Positions 55,101 through 64,000 of a stretch of 64,000 nucleotides of DNA are shown here, piece by piece. Both the position numbers and the translations under genes were made by a program. Each line of letters begins with the position of its first letter. Position 1 is the stretch's first letter. The stretch comes from Tetraselmis striata. Its lineage: Eukaryota; Chlorophyta; Chlorodendrophyceae; Chlorodendrales; Chlorodendraceae. The notes below the pieces were generated by a model that saw nothing but the letters and a program-made list of their open reading frames with translations, had not been told where the DNA came from and did no database searches. The DNA is taken from assembly GCA_006384855.1 (NCBI GenBank), contig VCJN01003010.1:124001-188000 (forward strand). The letters run 5' to 3'.

Positions 55101-55812
55101 TGCCCCGCCCTACGCGCTTTCGCTAGTGGACCCTATGCGGGTGGGTAAGGGGCGGGCCCTTCCCGGATGCTAGATAAAGACAGGTTGTCAAGACAAAAGA
55201 GCATGATTTAGTTGTAACAAATTGCAATTTGTAACTGAATTTGTTATTCATTTGTAACAAATTTGCGATTGGCCCGCCTAACCCTAGCCTTGCGGGTTTG
55301 TCCGCCTAGACAAATCACAACACTTCCCGCGGTAATCCTTACGATATTGCGAAAACTGCCCGAATATAAGATCCGACATGCGGTTCGCGCCGATAGTACA
55401 GTGTGCACCTGCGGCAATGCGACGCGCACATCTCGCGGCCCATTACCCATGCTCTAGTCTCTAGCAAGCCCACGACTGTCAACCACCGACACCGCGACCG
55501 CCCGTAGCGCCAGAAGTACCTCTTTATGCGGCGATGGTGGGCTGGTCGCGACCGCTACGGCCACGCAGGCGGCGTGCTGCGGGATCTCCGTGGCGACCCA
55601 GCAACAACCGATCTGAGCATCGCCCCAACCATAAACTTCGTACCGATGGCACAGCCTCCGTCGGACCAGCTAGGGGGAAACGCACACTGCTATGCCTTCT
55701 ATTTTAACTAAACTGCCTTTCTTTTCGAGCGATTTTGGACCTAAAGGCGTGTGGTGTCAGCAAAGCGCGAAACCCGGATGTGGGTGGTCAATCGGGCGGC
55801 AGTCGCGAGGGT
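52134..55812. other. intergenic with GTAC-rich repeats and poly-G tracts
   Basis: No gene recognised. 52380-52570 is dense in GTACC/GGTAC motifs. 52915-52935 is a copy of the dispersed TTACAT...GGCTTTCACAAA motif. Poly-G runs lie at about 53641-53664 and 54499-54518. A 216-codon minus-strand open frame (54491-53841) is Pro/Arg/Thr-rich with no domain. 53020-53340 has open frames on both strands with no recognised product. Confidence 0.4.
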
Positions 55813-55834
55813 CACTGTGAGATTCAGATGTGAC
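55813..55834 (+). repeat. left terminal inverted repeat of the CACTA element
   Basis: CACTGTGAGATTC onward, 22 bp identical to the inverse of 63267-63288. It is preceded by GGT (55810-55812). Confidence 0.9.
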
Positions 55835-56033
55835 ATACAGGTGACGAAGCACTACTACTAGCGACTATTATTTATCCGTGAAGGCTGCTGCTGGTGGCGG
55901 CACGTCCATTTAGTTACGTGCGAGTACATCCGGCGTTATTGCCGGCGGGCGATAAATCCTTTTTGTCATCATTCTGGTAGTCGTACCAGCCCGGTGAAGC
56001 GTACATGGCACTGACGTACAAGGTACAAGGTTG

Positions 56034-56116
56034 TCCGTGTGGTACCGGGTAGTACGCGATATATTTATTACGCCGGTACCGGGGATGTAGTACCCGGTAC
56101 CCGGTACCCGGGCACG
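56034..56116. repeat. GTACC-rich palindromic cluster
   Basis: Repeated GGTACCGGG/CCCGGTACC motifs (for example CCCGGTACCCGGTACCCGGG near 56093-56112) give many overlapping short palindromes. Similar clusters occur near 18300, 31570, 52390-52570 and 46350. The function is unknown. Confidence 0.7.
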
Positions 56117-56534
56117 AGCCCTAGTCGTCCTGTGGATAACTACGACTATTAGTACATGGGAGCGCAAATCGCAGCCGTACGTACTTGGTAACACTGGGGA
56201 ATTTGTAGTACTAGTACTGCTGATCGGGCCTGCCAGCCGTCCGATCAAAGGTCATCAGATGGGCGGTTTGGCTGCCATGTTTTGCCAAAGAGTGCTCACG
56301 TTACATAAATATTCGCGAGGGGGAGGGCGGGGGCAGGCAGCGGTTTGCCGAAGAATGATTGAATTACAATATTCGCGACAGCTGCCATCGGGGGATGTGG
56401 CCCGGGGGGGGGGGGGGGGGGGGGGTGCGGGGGCGGGGGGACCACGCCCGCCCCGCCCCCCCCCCGCCCCCCCTCGCCGCCAGCCGCTCCCGCCTGGGGG
56501 GGGGGGGGGGGGGGGGGGGTAAAGGGGGCGGGGG

Positions 56535-57099
56535 CTACTGCTTGTTCTTGTTCTTGCGTGCCCGGGGGACCCTCCGCTTCGACGATCTCGCTGCCTCCGC
56601 CTCCGCCTCCGCCTCCGCCTCCGCCTGCGCCTCCGACTCCGCCTCCGACTCCGCGACCGTCAGTTTCTTACCTCGGCGTTTCTTCACTGGCCTCTTCCGC
56701 TTCTTGTCATCCGTCAGTAAGTGTCTTCACCACCCCGGGAGGCTGTGCCGTCGACGACGCCGCCATGAGCTTCCTTACCTTGGCGTCGGGACGCCCCCTA
56801 TGCCCAGACACCCACAACAAGCCACAATCGTTTCGCCTTTAAGCGGTTGAGGATGCGGCCTCCTCGGCCACCACGAGTTGCGCCGCTGGCACTGTGGAAG
56901 CCTTGGCGTTGAGGTGGGCCTTACGGCGCTCCCGGACGAACCTGCGCGCGGCACAAGTTAGCCACGAGTGGGTGCGTGCTAATGCGGAGGATGGAGTGTT
57001 TTGTTGCGCGCCCACCTTGTCACGGGTTTCCTCATGTCTTTCTCGTCCTCCTCGATGCCGGCGGCGCGGACACGCGAGACAACAAGGCTCGCCGCCCAC
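56535..57099 (-). CDS. basic/acidic ORF of the CACTA element, partial model
   Basis: Two coding-like pieces on the minus strand: 57099-56839 (ends with FVRERRKAHLNAKAS and an Ala/Glu tail) and about 56725-56535, which reads DDKKRKRPVKKRRGKK (a nuclear-localisation-like cluster), then an ESEAESEAQAEAEAEAEAEA-type repeat and ends KNKNKQ-stop. The Glu-Ala tract comes from a GGCGGA hexamer repeat. CACTA elements often carry a second small DNA-binding protein beside the transposase, and this could be one, but no homology was recognised. Splicing between the pieces is unproven. Confidence 0.35.
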
Positions 57100-57400
57100 T
57101 TTTGCCCGGGGGGGCGAGGTCGGCCATGGCGCTGTGAGCGGTGAAGGGGGGGGGGGGGGGGGGCGGCCGAGGTGGAGAAACTAACACCCAGTCGACGACC
57201 GCCTTCCGCAGCAGTCAACGACACATCGGAGGCGAGGAGCAGCGCGCCACTACTATTTATATGCACGTATTGTCAAGAGCTAGTCGGTGCGGCATTGTGT
57301 CGGTGTAATTTCGCAATGTTTATTGTTGAAGTAGCACGGCGTAATGGATACGGCGAGTGAATCCGGGATAATGTGTGCGACGAATGTGCGCGCGCAGCGT

Positions 57401-57445
57401 TGTGCGGCGGTGTGCGGCGGTGTGCGGCGGTGTGCGGCGGTGTGC
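57401..57445. repeat. 10-bp minisatellite TGTGCGGCGG, 4.5 copies
   Basis: Four exact tandem units followed by TGTGC, preceded by GCGT. Related TGTGCGG-containing units recur at 63006-63040 inside the right end of the same element. Confidence 0.95.
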
Positions 57446-57570
57446 ACCGATGTTAATATAGTGTGAATATTATATCGGCCGTAGACGATCAGGTCTGGCA
57501 GCACCGCCTGTGCTTGTAAATAAGCGACAATGGGTCTAGTCTCCCGCTAGTATGTGCACCGCAAGTGCAC

Positions 57571-58325
57571 TCCGCAAGCCTCGCCTCCATCCGCGTCGGA
57601 ACCGGTAGCGCGCTAGTAAGTGTTGTTGTGTGCGCACATCGTGACAACATTACACGGTGGCAATTGCAATTATTAGCGGTGGATAATGTGAAGGCGTTTT
57701 CGAAATCGACAGAGAATGAGGCGGTGCTGGCGGAGTGCATTGGCGGTGCACATAATAGCGTGTTGCTGGGGTTTTGGCTGCATCGGACGCCGTATTCCCA
57801 CCCATCCGGCACGGAATGTCCGGTTTTCACACATTTGTGTGTTAATAAAGTGTGAATATTACGCGTCTTTTACGCCGGGTGGGTGGGCATCCGGCGTCCG
57901 ATGCACCCCGAATCTCACCAACACGCTACTCTACGCACCCCCAACGCACTCCGCAAGCCTCGCCTCCATCCGCGTCGGAACCGGTAGTAAGTGTTGTTGT
58001 GTGCGCACATCGTGACAACATTACACGGTGGCAATTGCAATTAGCGGTGGGTAATGTGAAGGCGTTTTCGAAATCGACAGAGAATGAGGCGGTGCTGGCG
58101 GAGTGCATTGGCGGTGCACATAATAGCGTGTTGCTGGGGTTTTGGCTGCATCGGACGCCGTATTCCCACCCATCCGGCACGGAATGTCCGGTTTTCACAC
58201 ATTTGTGTGTTAATAAAGCAGTGTGAATATTACGCGTCTTTTACGCCGGGTGGATGGGCATCCGGCGTCCGATGCACCCCGAATCTCACCAACACGCTAC
58301 TCTACGCACCCCCAACGCATTCCGC
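57571..58325. repeat. tandem duplication, 371-379 bp unit, two copies plus a partial
   Basis: The second copy starts at 57950 and a partial third at about 58321. The copies are nearly identical, the second lacking CGCGCTAG and TTA. Each unit contains a 32-bp inverted repeat (57779-57810 with 57874-57905; 58147-58178 with 58245-58276) around a loop of about 65 bp that includes TTAATAAAG and GTGTGAATATTACGCG. Confidence 0.9.
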
Positions 58326-59247
58326 CAGCCCCCCCTCTTTCCGCGCAGGTCCTACGTTCCATTGTATGTATATACATACGTACATGTATTGCTCCGAAAC
58401 CAGCCCAAACTTTATGAGTGCACAAGTGTAAATGGCGGGGGGGGGGGGGGGGGGGTGGGGGGGGGGATGTGGCGGCGGGGCATCCACTCACACATACCCC
58501 GGCGATGCATGACAGATATTACATGCCGTGGCGGGTCGGCGGGCCGACCCGGCGGGCCGACCCGGCGGGGGGGGGGGGGGGGGGGGGGGCGTCTATTCAA
58601 CACGTGCGACAGTGTCGTTTCGTGGAGCAGTATATGTGCCCGGCCTCATTTATACCGCCCCCCTACCTGCGCTGCATGGTCTACCCCTAAGAATTACTTA
58701 GCACAAACCGCCATTACTTAATAGGAACCTAGCACAGCCAGGCTTATATGCCCGCTTTCCCGATCAACTTCTACGCACTTCCGTCCCTCAACCGCCGGAC
58801 ATGGGGGTTAAGCCGCCAGCCTCGGCAGTTGCTTAGCCAGACTTGGCATCCCGTACCGTGTCCATGGCTTCGCAGCTCTGCCGCTGGCACACGCCGAGTC
58901 CGGCGCTTGCTGCCGCGGGGTTGCGCACGCATACACGCACGGTAATACGCCGCCGACGCCGCCACGCTTACTTCCACCACCTTCGCCAGCCGCAGCTTCG
59001 CACGCCTTTCCGCCGACATACGAAACGCACGAATCCCCCCCCGTCCCCGCGTCATGTATATTATATTCGAGGCGACTATGCGGGGCGCAGCACACGCCGC
59101 GGCGTGGGTCGGCGGAGCGACAGGCGGCGGGAGCCCTAATGGCCGGGCAGTATCCACACCCACACAGGCACCGCCGCTCACCTCCGACGCGGATGAACCG
59201 CCTCCCAAAGGAAACATGCCGGTTGGCGGTAAGCCCAGCAGGCGTGC

Positions 59248-59949
59248 GTGGGGTGCCGGCGCCGGTACTGGTGCGACGGAGCTGTCGCGTCAGGAACCGC
59301 ACCGCATGTGGAGCAACACATGGCGGTGCCGGCCCCACCTATGTCTAGGGCCACCTCCTCACAACACCCCGCCACGACGGCGTCGGCCACCGCCGACGGC
59401 GCCGTTGCGGGGGGGGACGCCCTACCAGGCGACGATGAGGCGCCTGGTGCGCCGCGTCAGGAGGCGGAGGAGGCCGTGGTCGAGGCGACTGATCGGGCTG
59501 AGGGGGTTGTCGAGGCGAGCGAGGCTGCGCTCGCGCCACCCGCCCCGCAGCCACCTGCGGGACATGCCGACTTGTTCGTCGCCATGTTGACCGGAGCACT
59601 ACGAGCAGTGGCGGGAGGCGGCCACATGCACTATCATGTGCGTGTCCTGGCCGGACGCCCGTCATGCGTGGACTGCGGCCAACGGACGGACTGGGAGTGT
59701 TGCTGCGACGGCACCCCGGCTTTGTGCGGCCATACCCACCCATGCATGGCGACCCATCAGCGGGCAGTCCCCTGCCCGACCACGGCCACGGTGAGGGCGG
59801 AGTTCCGCCATGTCAGGGACGCGTTCCACGACGCGACTCGCGCCGCCGTGTGTGAGGCTTCCGAGAAGGCACGCGCGGCTGGTAGGGTGCGCAGGGTGAG
59901 GCGGCGGACGGCCCAGGAGCTGAAGGAGAGCGAGACATGCCGTCAGTGA
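59248..59949 (+). CDS. Cys/His-rich ORF within the CACTA element
   Basis: The plus-strand frame is open for 233 codons. It is Ala/Glu-rich in the middle, then CVDCGQRTDWECCCDG and ALCGHTHPCMATHQ (near 59668-59759) give a C-x2-C-x5-C-x-C-x-C-x6-C-x5-C spacing like a treble-clef zinc ribbon. It ends with a helical Arg/Glu-rich tail. A similar but separate Cys cluster is duplicated just downstream at 59993-60297. Such clusters occur at the C-terminus of PiggyBac-like and other transposases, but no DDE core is visible nearby on this strand. It could be an element-encoded accessory protein. Confidence 0.4.
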   Translation: MGCRRRYWCDGAVASGTAPHVEQHMAVPAPPMSRATSSQHPATTASATADGAVAGGDALPGDDEAPGAPRQEAEEAVVEATDRAEGVVEASEAALAPPAPQPPAGHADLFVAMLTGALRAVAGGGHMHYHVRVLAGRPSCVDCGQRTDWECCCDGTPALCGHTHPCMATHQRAVPCPTTATVRAEFRHVRDAFHDATRAAVCEASEKARAAGRVRRVRRRTAQELKESETCRQ

Positions 59950-59992
59950 GGTCGGGCGCAATGTCATTGGGTGGGGCACACGGACGTGTAAC

Positions 59993-60297
59993 ACTTGCAC
60001 TTTGCGCGTACTGCTGGGTTACATCCAGGCTGCGTCACACTATGCAACCGGAAAGGCTGCGTTGCTACTGCAAACAATGCGACGCCTCACTCTGTAGCAA
60101 CCGCTGCCGCGCCTATCCCACAGCCGCTGCCCCCCCCCCCCCCCCCGCGCGCGGGATCCCCGCCATCAGCAGCTTGCACTTGCACTTTGCGCGTACTGCT
60201 GGGTTACATCCAGGCGGCGTCACACCGGAAAGGCTGCGTTGCTACTGCAAACGATGCTACGCCTCACTCGGTAGCAACCGCTGCCCCGCCCATCCCA
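59993..60297 (+). repeat. tandem duplication (~120 bp) encoding a Cys cluster
   Basis: CTTGCACTTTGCGCGTACTG starts at 59993 and again at 60179. Both copies can encode a C-x-C-x2-C cluster (RLRCYCKQCDASLCSNRC in the first, RLRCYCKRCYASLGSNRC in the second). They are separated by a poly-C run and differ at several sites, including loss of one Cys in copy 2. Confidence 0.85.
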
Positions 60298-60459
60298 CTC
60301 GGGATGCTGAGAGCAGCTAAAGGGCACCGGGGGCGGGGCAAGAGGGAGCAGGGCCAATGATTGTGGAAGAGCGGGGACCCGCTTGCATGCCATCGTATAA
60401 TATCTTGCACAATATCTGTTGCTGCACTCATATCTCACATCACTAGCTTAGCTATAGTG

Positions 60460-60485
60460 ATCCCCCCCCCCCCCCCCCCCCCCCC
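60460..60485. repeat. poly-C tract
   Basis: An uninterrupted run of about 24 C inside the CACTA element, downstream of the Cys-cluster duplication. Confidence 0.95.
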
Positions 60486-60897
60486 GCACCGCGTACGCAC
60501 AAGCCTGGGTATACGCATCAACTGCCCGCCGGGATGAGAAACTGGTATTGGTAGTGTGTCTGTGGGGTGGAGGGGGGGGGCAAAAGAGCTGCCAATTGCT
60601 GCCAAGCTGGTGCGTTACATTGGGGCAGGCGCTGGGCAGACAATTGGGGCTCGCTTCAGAGCATTGTCTAGTGCCTATGCGGCTGCGCCGCCTCCGCCGC
60701 ATGCAGACTCTGCGGGCTCACCAGCACCGCCACCTCAGTCATGCGGCCCTGCATCCCGCAGCCCGCCGCCGTCAGCCAGATCAGAGGTATCCAGAAGCCA
60801 GTGCTGGGGTTGTTGCGGCATGACCGCATAGTTTTCAGCGGCTGCCGTCCACAGCTTGTAATGCATCCCTTTCCGCCGATTCCGCTGTATGCGCTGT

Positions 60898-61218
60898 CTT
60901 GGCGCCGCGCTGCCCCGGCCGCCGCTGTCTTGGCGCCGCGCTGCCCCGGCCGCCGCTGTCTTGGCGCCGCGCTGCCCCGGCCGCCGCTGTCTTGGCGCCG
61001 CGCTGCCCCGGCCGCCGCTGTCTTGGCGCCGCGCTGCCCCGGCCGCCGCGCCTTGGCGCCGCGCTGCCCCGGCCGCCGCGCCTTGGCGCCGCGCTGCCCC
61101 GGCCGCCGCGCCTTGGCGCCGCGCTGCCCCGGCCGCCGCGCCTTGGCGCCGCGCTGCCCCGGCCGCCGCGCCTTGGCGCCGCGCTGCCCCGGCCGCCGCG
61201 CCTTGGCGCCGCGCGGGG
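60898..61218. repeat. GC-rich minisatellite: four 31-bp then six 30-bp units
   Basis: GGCGCCGCGCTGCCCCGGCC begins at 60901, 60932, 60963, 60994 (31-bp steps), then 61025, 61055, 61085, 61115, 61145, 61175 (30-bp steps), with a partial unit at 61205. The 31-bp units carry CTGTCTT and the 30-bp units CGCCTT as spacer. On the minus strand the 30-bp block encodes repeats of AAAGAARRQG, while the 31-bp block rotates the frame. Both strands stay open, so long apparent proteins here are artefacts or a repeat tail. Confidence 0.95.
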
Positions 61219-61539
61219 TATCGAGTCCTCCCCTCCCTAGTGAGCGCGTCCACCTGCGCCTTGCGCTCGGGGCCGTCCTCCTCCGTCACCACATTCTGCA
61301 ACCCCCACCGCGTGACGAACCACGCAGCTCCTTGCATGCGCTTGTACATGCGCCCAAGCACCGCCTAGGGACGCGAAGCTCCTTCTCGGTCATGATCGCC
61401 TTCACCCGGGCCTCCTCGAGCAGCGGACCGGCGTTAAGAATGGAAAACGTTTCCATGTGGTGCAAGCAGTCCTCCATGACCCAGCCGGACTGCACCGTCA
61501 CCTTGCCTGACCCTGCAGTCATGGAGGGGAATGCCGTCA

Positions 61540-61587
61540 CGCCCACGCCCACGCCCACGCCCACGCCCGGGGGGGGGGGGGGGGGGT
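61540..61587. repeat. (CCCACG)n followed by poly-G
   Basis: Four CCCACG-type hexamers are followed by about 18 G. On the minus strand this is the start of the transposase-gene intron (GTAACC then poly-C). Confidence 0.9.
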
Positions 61588-63266
61588 TACCTTTCGATTC
61601 TTGGACACTGCAAACGAAGGGCGCAACCCGCGTTCAAAGTTGCTGGGTATCGGGACTAAAGCCTGGCGCCGGTCTTCCTGCTTCATAGCTCGGAATCCAA
61701 TGTGGCCCTGCACGGTGACAAATTTCCTCCAGAAGTCCCTTTCCAAGCCAAAAAAAAACAGGTGGAACGGCGCGAGGGGGAAGAGGTTGATCATGCTGAC
61801 ATAGCCCAGGACCACATGCACATGGCACACGCCATGGCAGCCAGTGTTCTGCTTGGCCTCCGCCAGCCGGGTTGTGTTGAACGCACGCCGGGCAAGGTGC
61901 GTGATTCACTGGACAAGTCATCTCCTTGATGGACGGTTACCAAGCGAGCCTCCCCGTCCGCATCCACAGTGGGGTGCTCCTGGGCAGCCGCCATAGCCTC
62001 CACAACCTGCCACGCCGACCGGGTGGGTGCGTGTGATTCCATACAACCGCAGTTGAGTGGTGCCACCAGCACGCAGGCCGGGCCCACTCACCTCTGAACG
62101 CAGAAGGTCCACAATGTCACCGTCCTCGAAAACAGCGCGCCACTGGGTCGCCCCGCCGTAGTCCTCCAACACCCACTCGGTAACGACGCCGGTTATCACG
62201 CCGTAGTGCCATACTCCCCGGAACTTCTTGGCGATGACCTTCATGTAGAAGTCGCCGGGATCGCCTTTCCATATCACGCCCTCATCGCGGGTTCGACGCC
62301 CGCCGGCGGCCACGCAGGCGCGTCGATGTCCATACCGTCTTCGCCAACGGGGTCCTCCCCCACGCCCATCACATCGTCCACCTTCGAGCCGCCGTCGTCC
62401 GAGACCGGCGCCGGCGGGCCGTTTCCGACGGCTGCAGCTACTCCTGCTGCCGCGCTTGTTGCTGCTGTTGCTGCTGCTGCTGCTGCCGCCCCTGCTGCTG
62501 CAGCTTGTGATAAGGCGGCCTTGCGGCGCAACTTAGCCGCACGCTTCAACGAGTGGCTACAGTTCGGGTATTTCCGGAAGTGCCGCTCTCGCGCCGTCCT
62601 TTCACTACTACCCGTCACGATGCCGTGGCAGTGCTTGCATGTGTACACGCCATCCTTCGACACACTCGCTATCCATCCCTTTGCCGGCATGCCTGCTGCC
62701 GCGCGCGGGGGGCGGGGGGGGGTTGAGAGTTGGGGTGGATGTAACCCACCACCGGCAGGCAACACAGATGCGAGTGCGCGGCTGTCCGCGCTTGATTCAA
62801 CGGTGAGCGGCGGTGACCGTGAGGCGACCCCGTACTTCATGCGCGTGCTGGGGCGTTACACAATCATCAGCAGTTAGGGCGGCTGCATTAAAACGCGCAC
62901 CTACGAACACCACCTACCGCCTACCACCTACCGTACCACCTACATCCGCCCACGCCTCCGCCCGTCGTGCCGCACATCGCGGCACACCGCGGGGTCAGCG
63001 GTCAGCGATGTGCGGTCAGCGATGTGCGGCGATGTGCAATGAGTGCGTACATCCGCCTGTACTTAGCCCGGGTGCTCCGCGTCGGCGGGCGACACGCGAG
63101 CCCGCGTGCGCATATCAATTTGATGAAATTATGGAAACGAGAAATTCATATAGTACTTTACAGGTCGCGCGCGATAGTCGTCGCTACTGGGTATGAAATC
63201 CACGTCCCTCGTCCGTCCCGTATCGTCCCCGTATGTCGTCGTTCGTCACCAGTAGGGCACATTTAC

Positions 63267-63288
63267 GTCACATCTGAATCTCACAGTG
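63267..63288 (-). repeat. right terminal inverted repeat of the CACTA element
   Basis: Read on the minus strand it is CACTGTGAGATTC onward, identical over 22 bp to 55813-55834. It is followed by GGT (63289-63291). Confidence 0.9.
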
Positions 63289-63291
63289 GGT

Positions 63292-64000
63292 GGACCTCGC
63301 GGCCGCCGTCCCGGGACATACACGCGCCCCAAGCCAGTCGTGATCGCCCTGTGTCCTCGATGGGGTCAGGAGGTAGGGCTCCGGGGTGGGCGGGAGCTGG
63401 TAAGATGGACGGGGGTGTGCTAGTGCATGCATGATTCGCCGCCCGCAGTGCCGGGCGGGTACTTCGGGCGACGCGACGCGGATCCTGCGGCGCGGTGGCG
63501 CGGCGCGTGCTGAAAGATTATTCGTATTGTATTCGGATCGCGAAATGTCGTACATGTTACCGCGGGAAGTGTTGTGATAGTACTTTATGCCGCGGTGAAT
63601 TGTAACCATTTGGCGCCGCGGAGGGGGTTCTTGGGGTACCTATTTCCGGCCAAAATATGGCCTTGGTACCTCGCGCCCTCGCTGTCCGTAGCTTGTCCTG
63701 CCCATCTAGCACTGGCAAGCTCGTACAGCACTGAAACGGTGGGTATTAGATATTTAACCATTGTGGGGCCGCATTTACCAAAGATGTGATCTCATACATT
63801 TTGGGTGTGAGTAGGCCCACCGGGCGTACTGCCCGCATCGAAAAGGGTAGCATAGCGGGGTGGGTGGGTTGCGCTAGCTGGTCAGCTGGCGCAAAGGCAG
63901 AAGGTGGGCTCCCCTCGTGATGCGGGTGAGTCATGTAGCAGGCATGTCGCATGTTGTCGCTAGCGCCGCTGGACATCAAGAAGTCCAAGCGGTACGCGTA
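63292..64000. other. flank of the CACTA element, no recognised gene
   Basis: Mixed-composition sequence up to the window edge. No coding signal, RNA gene or repeat family was recognised. Confidence 0.5.

Follow-up and report, generated by a model that had tools for sequence, protein, structure and literature searches.

A 7,476-bp element at positions 55813-63288 of the 64,000-nucleotide stretch of Tetraselmis striata DNA analysed here (the window; contig VCJN01003010.1, positions 124,001 to 188,000) is, with a probability that we put at about 90%, an internally deleted and non-autonomous DNA transposon of the cut-and-paste kind, whose ends and target-site duplication are those of the CACTA/EnSpm type. 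The element is ordinary in kind and well documented in detail; the present analysis adds the size of its family, statistics on the duplications, paralogous sites that lack the insertion, the long relatives and the reading as a deletion derivative. The element and its boundaries are the following:

55813-63288 (7,476 bp): element with ends of CACTA type, supported by perfect 22-bp inverted ends, a GGT duplication, unoccupied paralogous sites and many copies; in our reading internally deleted
55813-55834, plus strand: left terminal inverted repeat
63267-63288, minus strand: right terminal inverted repeat
55810-55812: left target-site duplication, GGT
63289-63291: right target-site duplication, GGT

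The two inverted ends are identical at 22 of 22 bp, with no third match in the window at up to three mismatches, and not one of 100 dinucleotide shuffles contained two end matches. Complete inverted ends flanked by GGT on both sides, as well as the improbability of a chance origin, had been claimed in the initial annotation from the letters alone, and both claims hold. The inverted match reaches 31 bp at 90% identity and the ends diverge past that point, so that a left and a right end can be distinguished. The end sequence starts with CACTG, base five being G and not A.

In the assembly to which the window belongs (224,097,584 bases in 2,903 contigs), the terminus occurs 2,331 times at up to two mismatches (1,221 forward and 1,110 reverse), and a control with the reversed pattern gave no match. 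Among the first 100 termini listed, neighbours within 15 kb faced each other (+-) in 30 cases, as compared with seven ++, one -+ and no -- arrangements, and 28 of the 30 facing pairs were spaced by 6,081-8,933 bp, the other two by 13,030 and 13,854 bp. Roughly 1,100 copies of about 8 kb each would make up near 4% of the genome.

The target-site duplication was evaluated on 33 facing pairs within 10.5 kb for which both flanks were in hand, the window copy included and loci with one end in hand omitted. An exact 3-bp duplication is present in 21 of these pairs and an exact 2-, 4- or 5-bp duplication in none, while left and right flanks swapped between pairs agree at 3 bp in only 13 of 1,056 control combinations; exact flank matches, looked for up to a length of 8 bp, never exceeded 3 bp in the 33 pairs. 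The paired termini with 3-bp duplications that had been proposed as a check on the element are thus found across the genome. A Chapaev or Chapaev3 transposon instead of EnSpm/CACTA would share the CAC...GTG ends and, with duplications of 3 to 4 bp, would overlap in duplication length, as far as the available part of PMC4079192 goes. In the same portion of that source Chapaev3 is described as flanked by TWA between A and T, a rule that this family does not follow (0 of the 21 duplications), and the absence of an exact 4-bp duplication from all 33 pairs speaks against Chapaev, which makes this alternative very improbable; a Chapaev that duplicates 3 bp and ignores TWA would still fit these data.

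Unoccupied sites also support insertion at GGT by the CACTA-type element. The window copy sits in another dispersed repeat (flanks 55700-55812 and 63289-63400), and when the flanks are joined with one GGT into 222 bases, all 40 places scored of 257 candidates match at 86-92%, the junction being crossed in 40 of 40 and bases 1-222 covered in 26 of 40. In the eight unoccupied places that were fetched, the junction reads as a single GGT in seven and GAT in one, these being paralogous places within one genome and not alleles of another strain. Two nested copies tell of insertions into the family itself, and for both of them the window copy preserves the uninterrupted site: the C51 copy is inserted in the 368-bp unit (described below) of a family member with the duplication CAA, and the C126 copy duplicates TAG at a place where the window copy reads TGG.

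Of the 30 exact termini that come first when contigs are taken in order, we compared the inner 1.2 kb of 28, the remaining two belonging to a third type of end. The 12 right-type ends have a median nearest-neighbour identity of 99.2%, and the 16 left-type ends one of 97.8% with outliers down to 46%, of which L048 and L053, at the least, stem from interrupted copies. Because the nearest-neighbour identity of the ends is high, the family, which is large, was probably active recently, bearing in mind that the sampling of exact termini biases this comparison toward young copies. The L053 interruption (C22:144112-146526) is a frame that resembles, by eye, the end of a Gypsy-type polyprotein and that breaks into the family end after 41 bp. 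The outer flanks of L011 (C542) and L012 (C2845) are identical at 100 of 100 bases, which points to the same insertion present twice, as haplotypes or through duplication.

A 12,079-bp family member at C8:21199-33277, whose ends have 0 and 1 mismatch and which is bordered by TGG on either side, shows what the window copy is lacking. The features of the window copy that matter to the comparison are listed here:

57098-57099: junction, 470 bp extra in the C8 copy
57379-57478: junction, 3,189 bp (C8:28042-31230) with a Ulp1-like frame in the C8 copy, about 100 bp of other sequence in the window
57567-58345: tandem array, 368-bp unit, 2.1 copies
60898-61214: tandem array, 30-bp unit, 10.4 copies
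61895-61903: junction, 1,340 bp extra in the C8 copy, encoding a DDE-like region

A further 960 bp or so near the left end of the C8 copy is also missing from the window copy, and the 30-bp array with the sequence following it replaces the continuation of the C8 transposase-like frame at that point. The tandem arrays noticed earlier inside the element are real, and shorter ones accompany the two listed; the 368-bp unit is present in more copies in the window copy than in C8, in still other numbers elsewhere (more copies in L069, about one in L111). Since the coding parts are broken off, the short form would have arisen by deletion, and the reading that we prefer for the window copy is that it derives from longer members through internal deletion. 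If the 7.5-kb copy were instead autonomous, with a transposase that numerous introns conceal, this could account for the zinc-finger-like and Tudor-like open frames and for the piece of a later transposase-like frame that are all present, but the 1,340 bp of DDE-like region found in the long relative and the 3.2 kb that hold its Ulp1-like frame are absent, and the long-copy frame stops continuing after the exon-like piece that ends at the 30-bp array. Autonomy is already contradicted by the lack of the DDE-like stretch, if that stretch is catalytic, and we regard this alternative as hardly credible.

The DNA of the DDE-like stretch had 174 candidates in the genome, and all 40 that were scored match at 94-100%; for the DDE-like exon, 128 of 337 candidates were scored and yielded 170 matches. 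For the Ulp1-like frame, 106 of 256 candidates were scored and yielded 108 matches, many of them partial or with stops. At 18 of the 40 DDE places a Ulp1-like match, among the first 66 of the 108, lies no more than 16 kb away, and it is convergent in 18 of 18. The C8 copy holds two convergent genes between its ends, the first of which would encode a CACTA transposase. Full-length CACTA members are described, in the accessible part of PMC4158355, as having two open reading frames between their ends, one of them a transposase.

In the C8 copy the transposase-like frame is split across several frames. Among the DDE-like exon matches listed, four lie within open frames (C925, 885 amino acids; C724, 886; C900, 887; C1397, 1,000), and one of these, in the long copy L121, reads open as it stands for 886 amino acids, along which follow CPKGC (31), CPEC (56), D148 in DDGF, D237 in WVCD, CPWC (256), PDHL (381), NLHSAVC (596) and E621 in WMEN, the D and E positions being assigned by eye. 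This layout presumably resembles that of EnSpm transposases, a likeness that we take as a lead and not as a test. The CMC/CMCT clade is characterized by C(2)C and H(3-4)H between the second D and the last E, according to the portion of PMC12730594 available to us; the C(2)C feature is found in L121 as the CPWC at 256. A genome search with the Transposase_21 model (PF02992) gave no match, and since it likewise gave none in 14 control genomes, it is uninformative. A match to Transposase_21 serves in any case as a detection aid for CACTA/EnSpm and not as its definition. In a scan of IMG/VR with the 886-amino-acid frame, one stretch fitted a pattern and no relative was found.

Several observations weigh against the CACTA/EnSpm derivative that we favour. 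Twelve of the 33 pairs have no exact duplication; in two of the 12 (C70, that is L078/L079, and C35, that is L057/L058) the left flank lies within another copy and the right flank does not continue it, a mismatch that points to recombination or mis-joined contigs. The first five bases are CACTG, whereas the strict definition of CACTA, in the part of PMC4158355 at hand, asks for CACTA. H(3-4)H was not found between the by-eye second D and E of the L121 frame, where H(3)C (HSAVC, 598) is seen instead. Against Pfam at E<=10, the 886-amino-acid frame had solely a proline-rich match at E=0.7, Transposase_21 being absent. The Ulp1-like frame matches PF02902 at E=0.013 with 15.8 bits, under the Pfam cut-off of 20.7, and its two matches among PDB sequences at E<=10 are not to a protease in either case. 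Finally, the differences between the window copy and C8 go both ways: because window positions 58346-59718 (about 1.4 kb) are missing in C8, the two copies are related without C8 being simply the source of the other.

The protein results could also be taken to mean that the element belongs to a separate, undescribed superfamily that resembles CACTA in its ends and 3-bp duplications, given the Pfam outcome, the missing H(3-4)H and the lack of any match of the 886-amino-acid frame to PDB sequences at E<=1. The succession of DDGF, WVCD, CPWC, PDHL, NLHSAVC and WMEN, in the resemblance to EnSpm transposases that we assume, speaks against such a superfamily, which we consider improbable. The CACTA-type label for our element therefore stands firmly on the ends and the duplication and is tentative for the protein: because no Pfam model matches, the label is borne there by motifs seen by eye, and the superfamily assignment made in the initial annotation is upheld in that same graded manner.

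The window copy would retain parts of these genes in four reading frames:

62274-62855, minus strand: open frame with a zinc-finger-like start CxxC...H...CxxH (MPAKGWIASV...), no significant Pfam match
61918-62532, minus strand: open frame containing the Tudor-like piece (62089-62289), no significant Pfam match
61537-61905, minus strand: leftover of the transposase-like frame, the counterpart of the ...FPLAPDHLCFLGLGKDFW... part of long copies
59233-59949, plus strand: Cys-rich open frame, perhaps what is left of the final part of the convergent second gene, judging by its orientation and a partial alignment

Judging by their order and strand, the zinc-finger-like and Tudor-like frames would be the start of one gene. 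An interior with zinc-finger, Tudor-like and transposase-like coding had been proposed before; the open frames and the transposase-like leftover are there, but neither the zinc-finger nor the Tudor assignment has a significant Pfam match. In the best 150 of 1,702 candidates for the 204-amino-acid Tudor-like frame, 147 are stop-free and three have one TGA, a scarcity of stops that can be explained without selection by the near-identity of young copies. The 67-amino-acid Tudor-like piece is predicted to be all-beta at low confidence, with a mean predicted local distance difference test score (pLDDT) of 67.2, and a structural search with the model gave 277 matches at E<=10 and none at E<=0.001, the weak matches including the SETDB1 Tudor domain and also ribosomal proteins. 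The Tudor-like label is therefore not established by the modelling, because an all-beta prediction at pLDDT 67 has no significant match. The ratio of non-synonymous to synonymous substitution rates (dN/dS) was 0.29-0.57 in six pairings of four copies of the Tudor-like stretch (2-5 synonymous and 3-9 non-synonymous changes), 0-1.28 in six pairings of the zinc-finger-like stretch (1-4.8 synonymous, 0-14.2 non-synonymous) and 0.30-0.62 for three transposase-like stretches compared between L111 and L121 (3-4.5 and 3-7.5 each), the changes being too few on all stretches for a claim of selection.

How the family moves can be pictured from these sequences. The transposase from long copies would bind the ends, perhaps via the left subterminal stretch:

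55813-56312: GTAC-rich subterminal region (16 GTAC in 500 bp), candidate transposase-binding repeats

The 16 occurrences were reached in none of 2,000 single-base shuffles of that stretch, and GTAC occurs five times in 500 bp at the right end and 29 times across the entire element. The transposase would then excise both long and short copies and reinsert them at cuts staggered by 3 bp, so that short copies without the catalytic region would be moved in trans and would now outnumber the long ones, and internal tandem arrays varying in number, as seen in L069 and L111, would widen the spread of lengths. One could go further and propose a distinct algal CMC lineage whose transposase starts with zinc-finger-like and Tudor-like modules, and whose abundant deletion derivatives still make the N-terminal part, which would regulate the mobility or silencing of the family itself, a proposal that we consider speculative and rather unlikely. 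The Ulp1-bearing VANC genes of Vandal elements have been linked to escape from silencing, in what is available of PMC13317346.

Some further observations concern the surroundings of the family. L110 (C16:1-6700) was rejected as a possible long copy: its family end breaks at 228 bp, next to a 2.1-kb tandem array that holds three copies of a 171-amino-acid frame with a homeodomain-like helix-turn-helix match (PF13565, E=0.00015, under its cut-off). Six other open reading frames of the window, one of which (63268-63639) overlaps the right end of the element, matched no Pfam family, and a search of the window against Rfam gave no match. The window contains 30 runs of at least 12 C or G (14 of C and 16 of G, the longest of 36) and none of A or T. 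Elsewhere in the genome, L122 (C1745:67761-68102) encodes a RuBisCO small subunit whose open frame continues into a proline-rich extension at the C-terminus, the sole PF00101 match found in the genome, with 7jfo_B, 8q04_P, 1ir2_I, 1uw9_C and 1gk8_I as its best solved relatives, several of which we take to be from Chlamydomonas. The sequence TTTTAGGG repeated four times gave five overlapping matches over three contigs in the genome, a weak result.

In regards to known systems, a literature search that covered titles and the starts of abstracts, with Repbase and most subscription journals outside its scope, recognised no description of this family. Zisupton (KDZ) has an 8-bp duplication and Plavaka termini read TGT..ACA or CATCA..TGATG, in the accessible text of PMC12730594; none of the 33 pairs shows an exact flank match longer than 3 bp, and the termini of our element differ from those of Plavaka. 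The shortened derivatives are a trait that this family presumably has in common with CACTA/EnSpm, and as they stand beside long relatives in one assembly, the relation of short to long can be read base by base. Like CACTA/EnSpm elements such as maize En/Spm, the family has CAC...GTG ends, 3-bp duplications and, as it appears, two genes in its long copies; unlike them, it has G as fifth base, leaves Transposase_21 unmatched and carries zinc-finger-like and Tudor-like stretches at the gene start. EnSpm is accepted, in the same portion of PMC12730594, on 5'-CAC...GTG-3' termini plus 3-bp duplications, both of which are found here. A close parallel for the second gene is the CACTA-ULP association reported, as far as the available part of PMC2528002 extends, as ULP domains in five grapevine CACTA families and as rice proteins with Tnp2 and ULP1 domains. 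Our family is like these in that a CACTA-type element is associated with a Ulp1-like region, and unlike them in that the transposase-like gene and the Ulp1-like frame converge and that the match of the latter lies under the Pfam cut-off; if the Ulp1-like reading is true, the association of Ulp1-like sequences with CACTA-type elements described in that source for grapevine and rice extends to a green alga.

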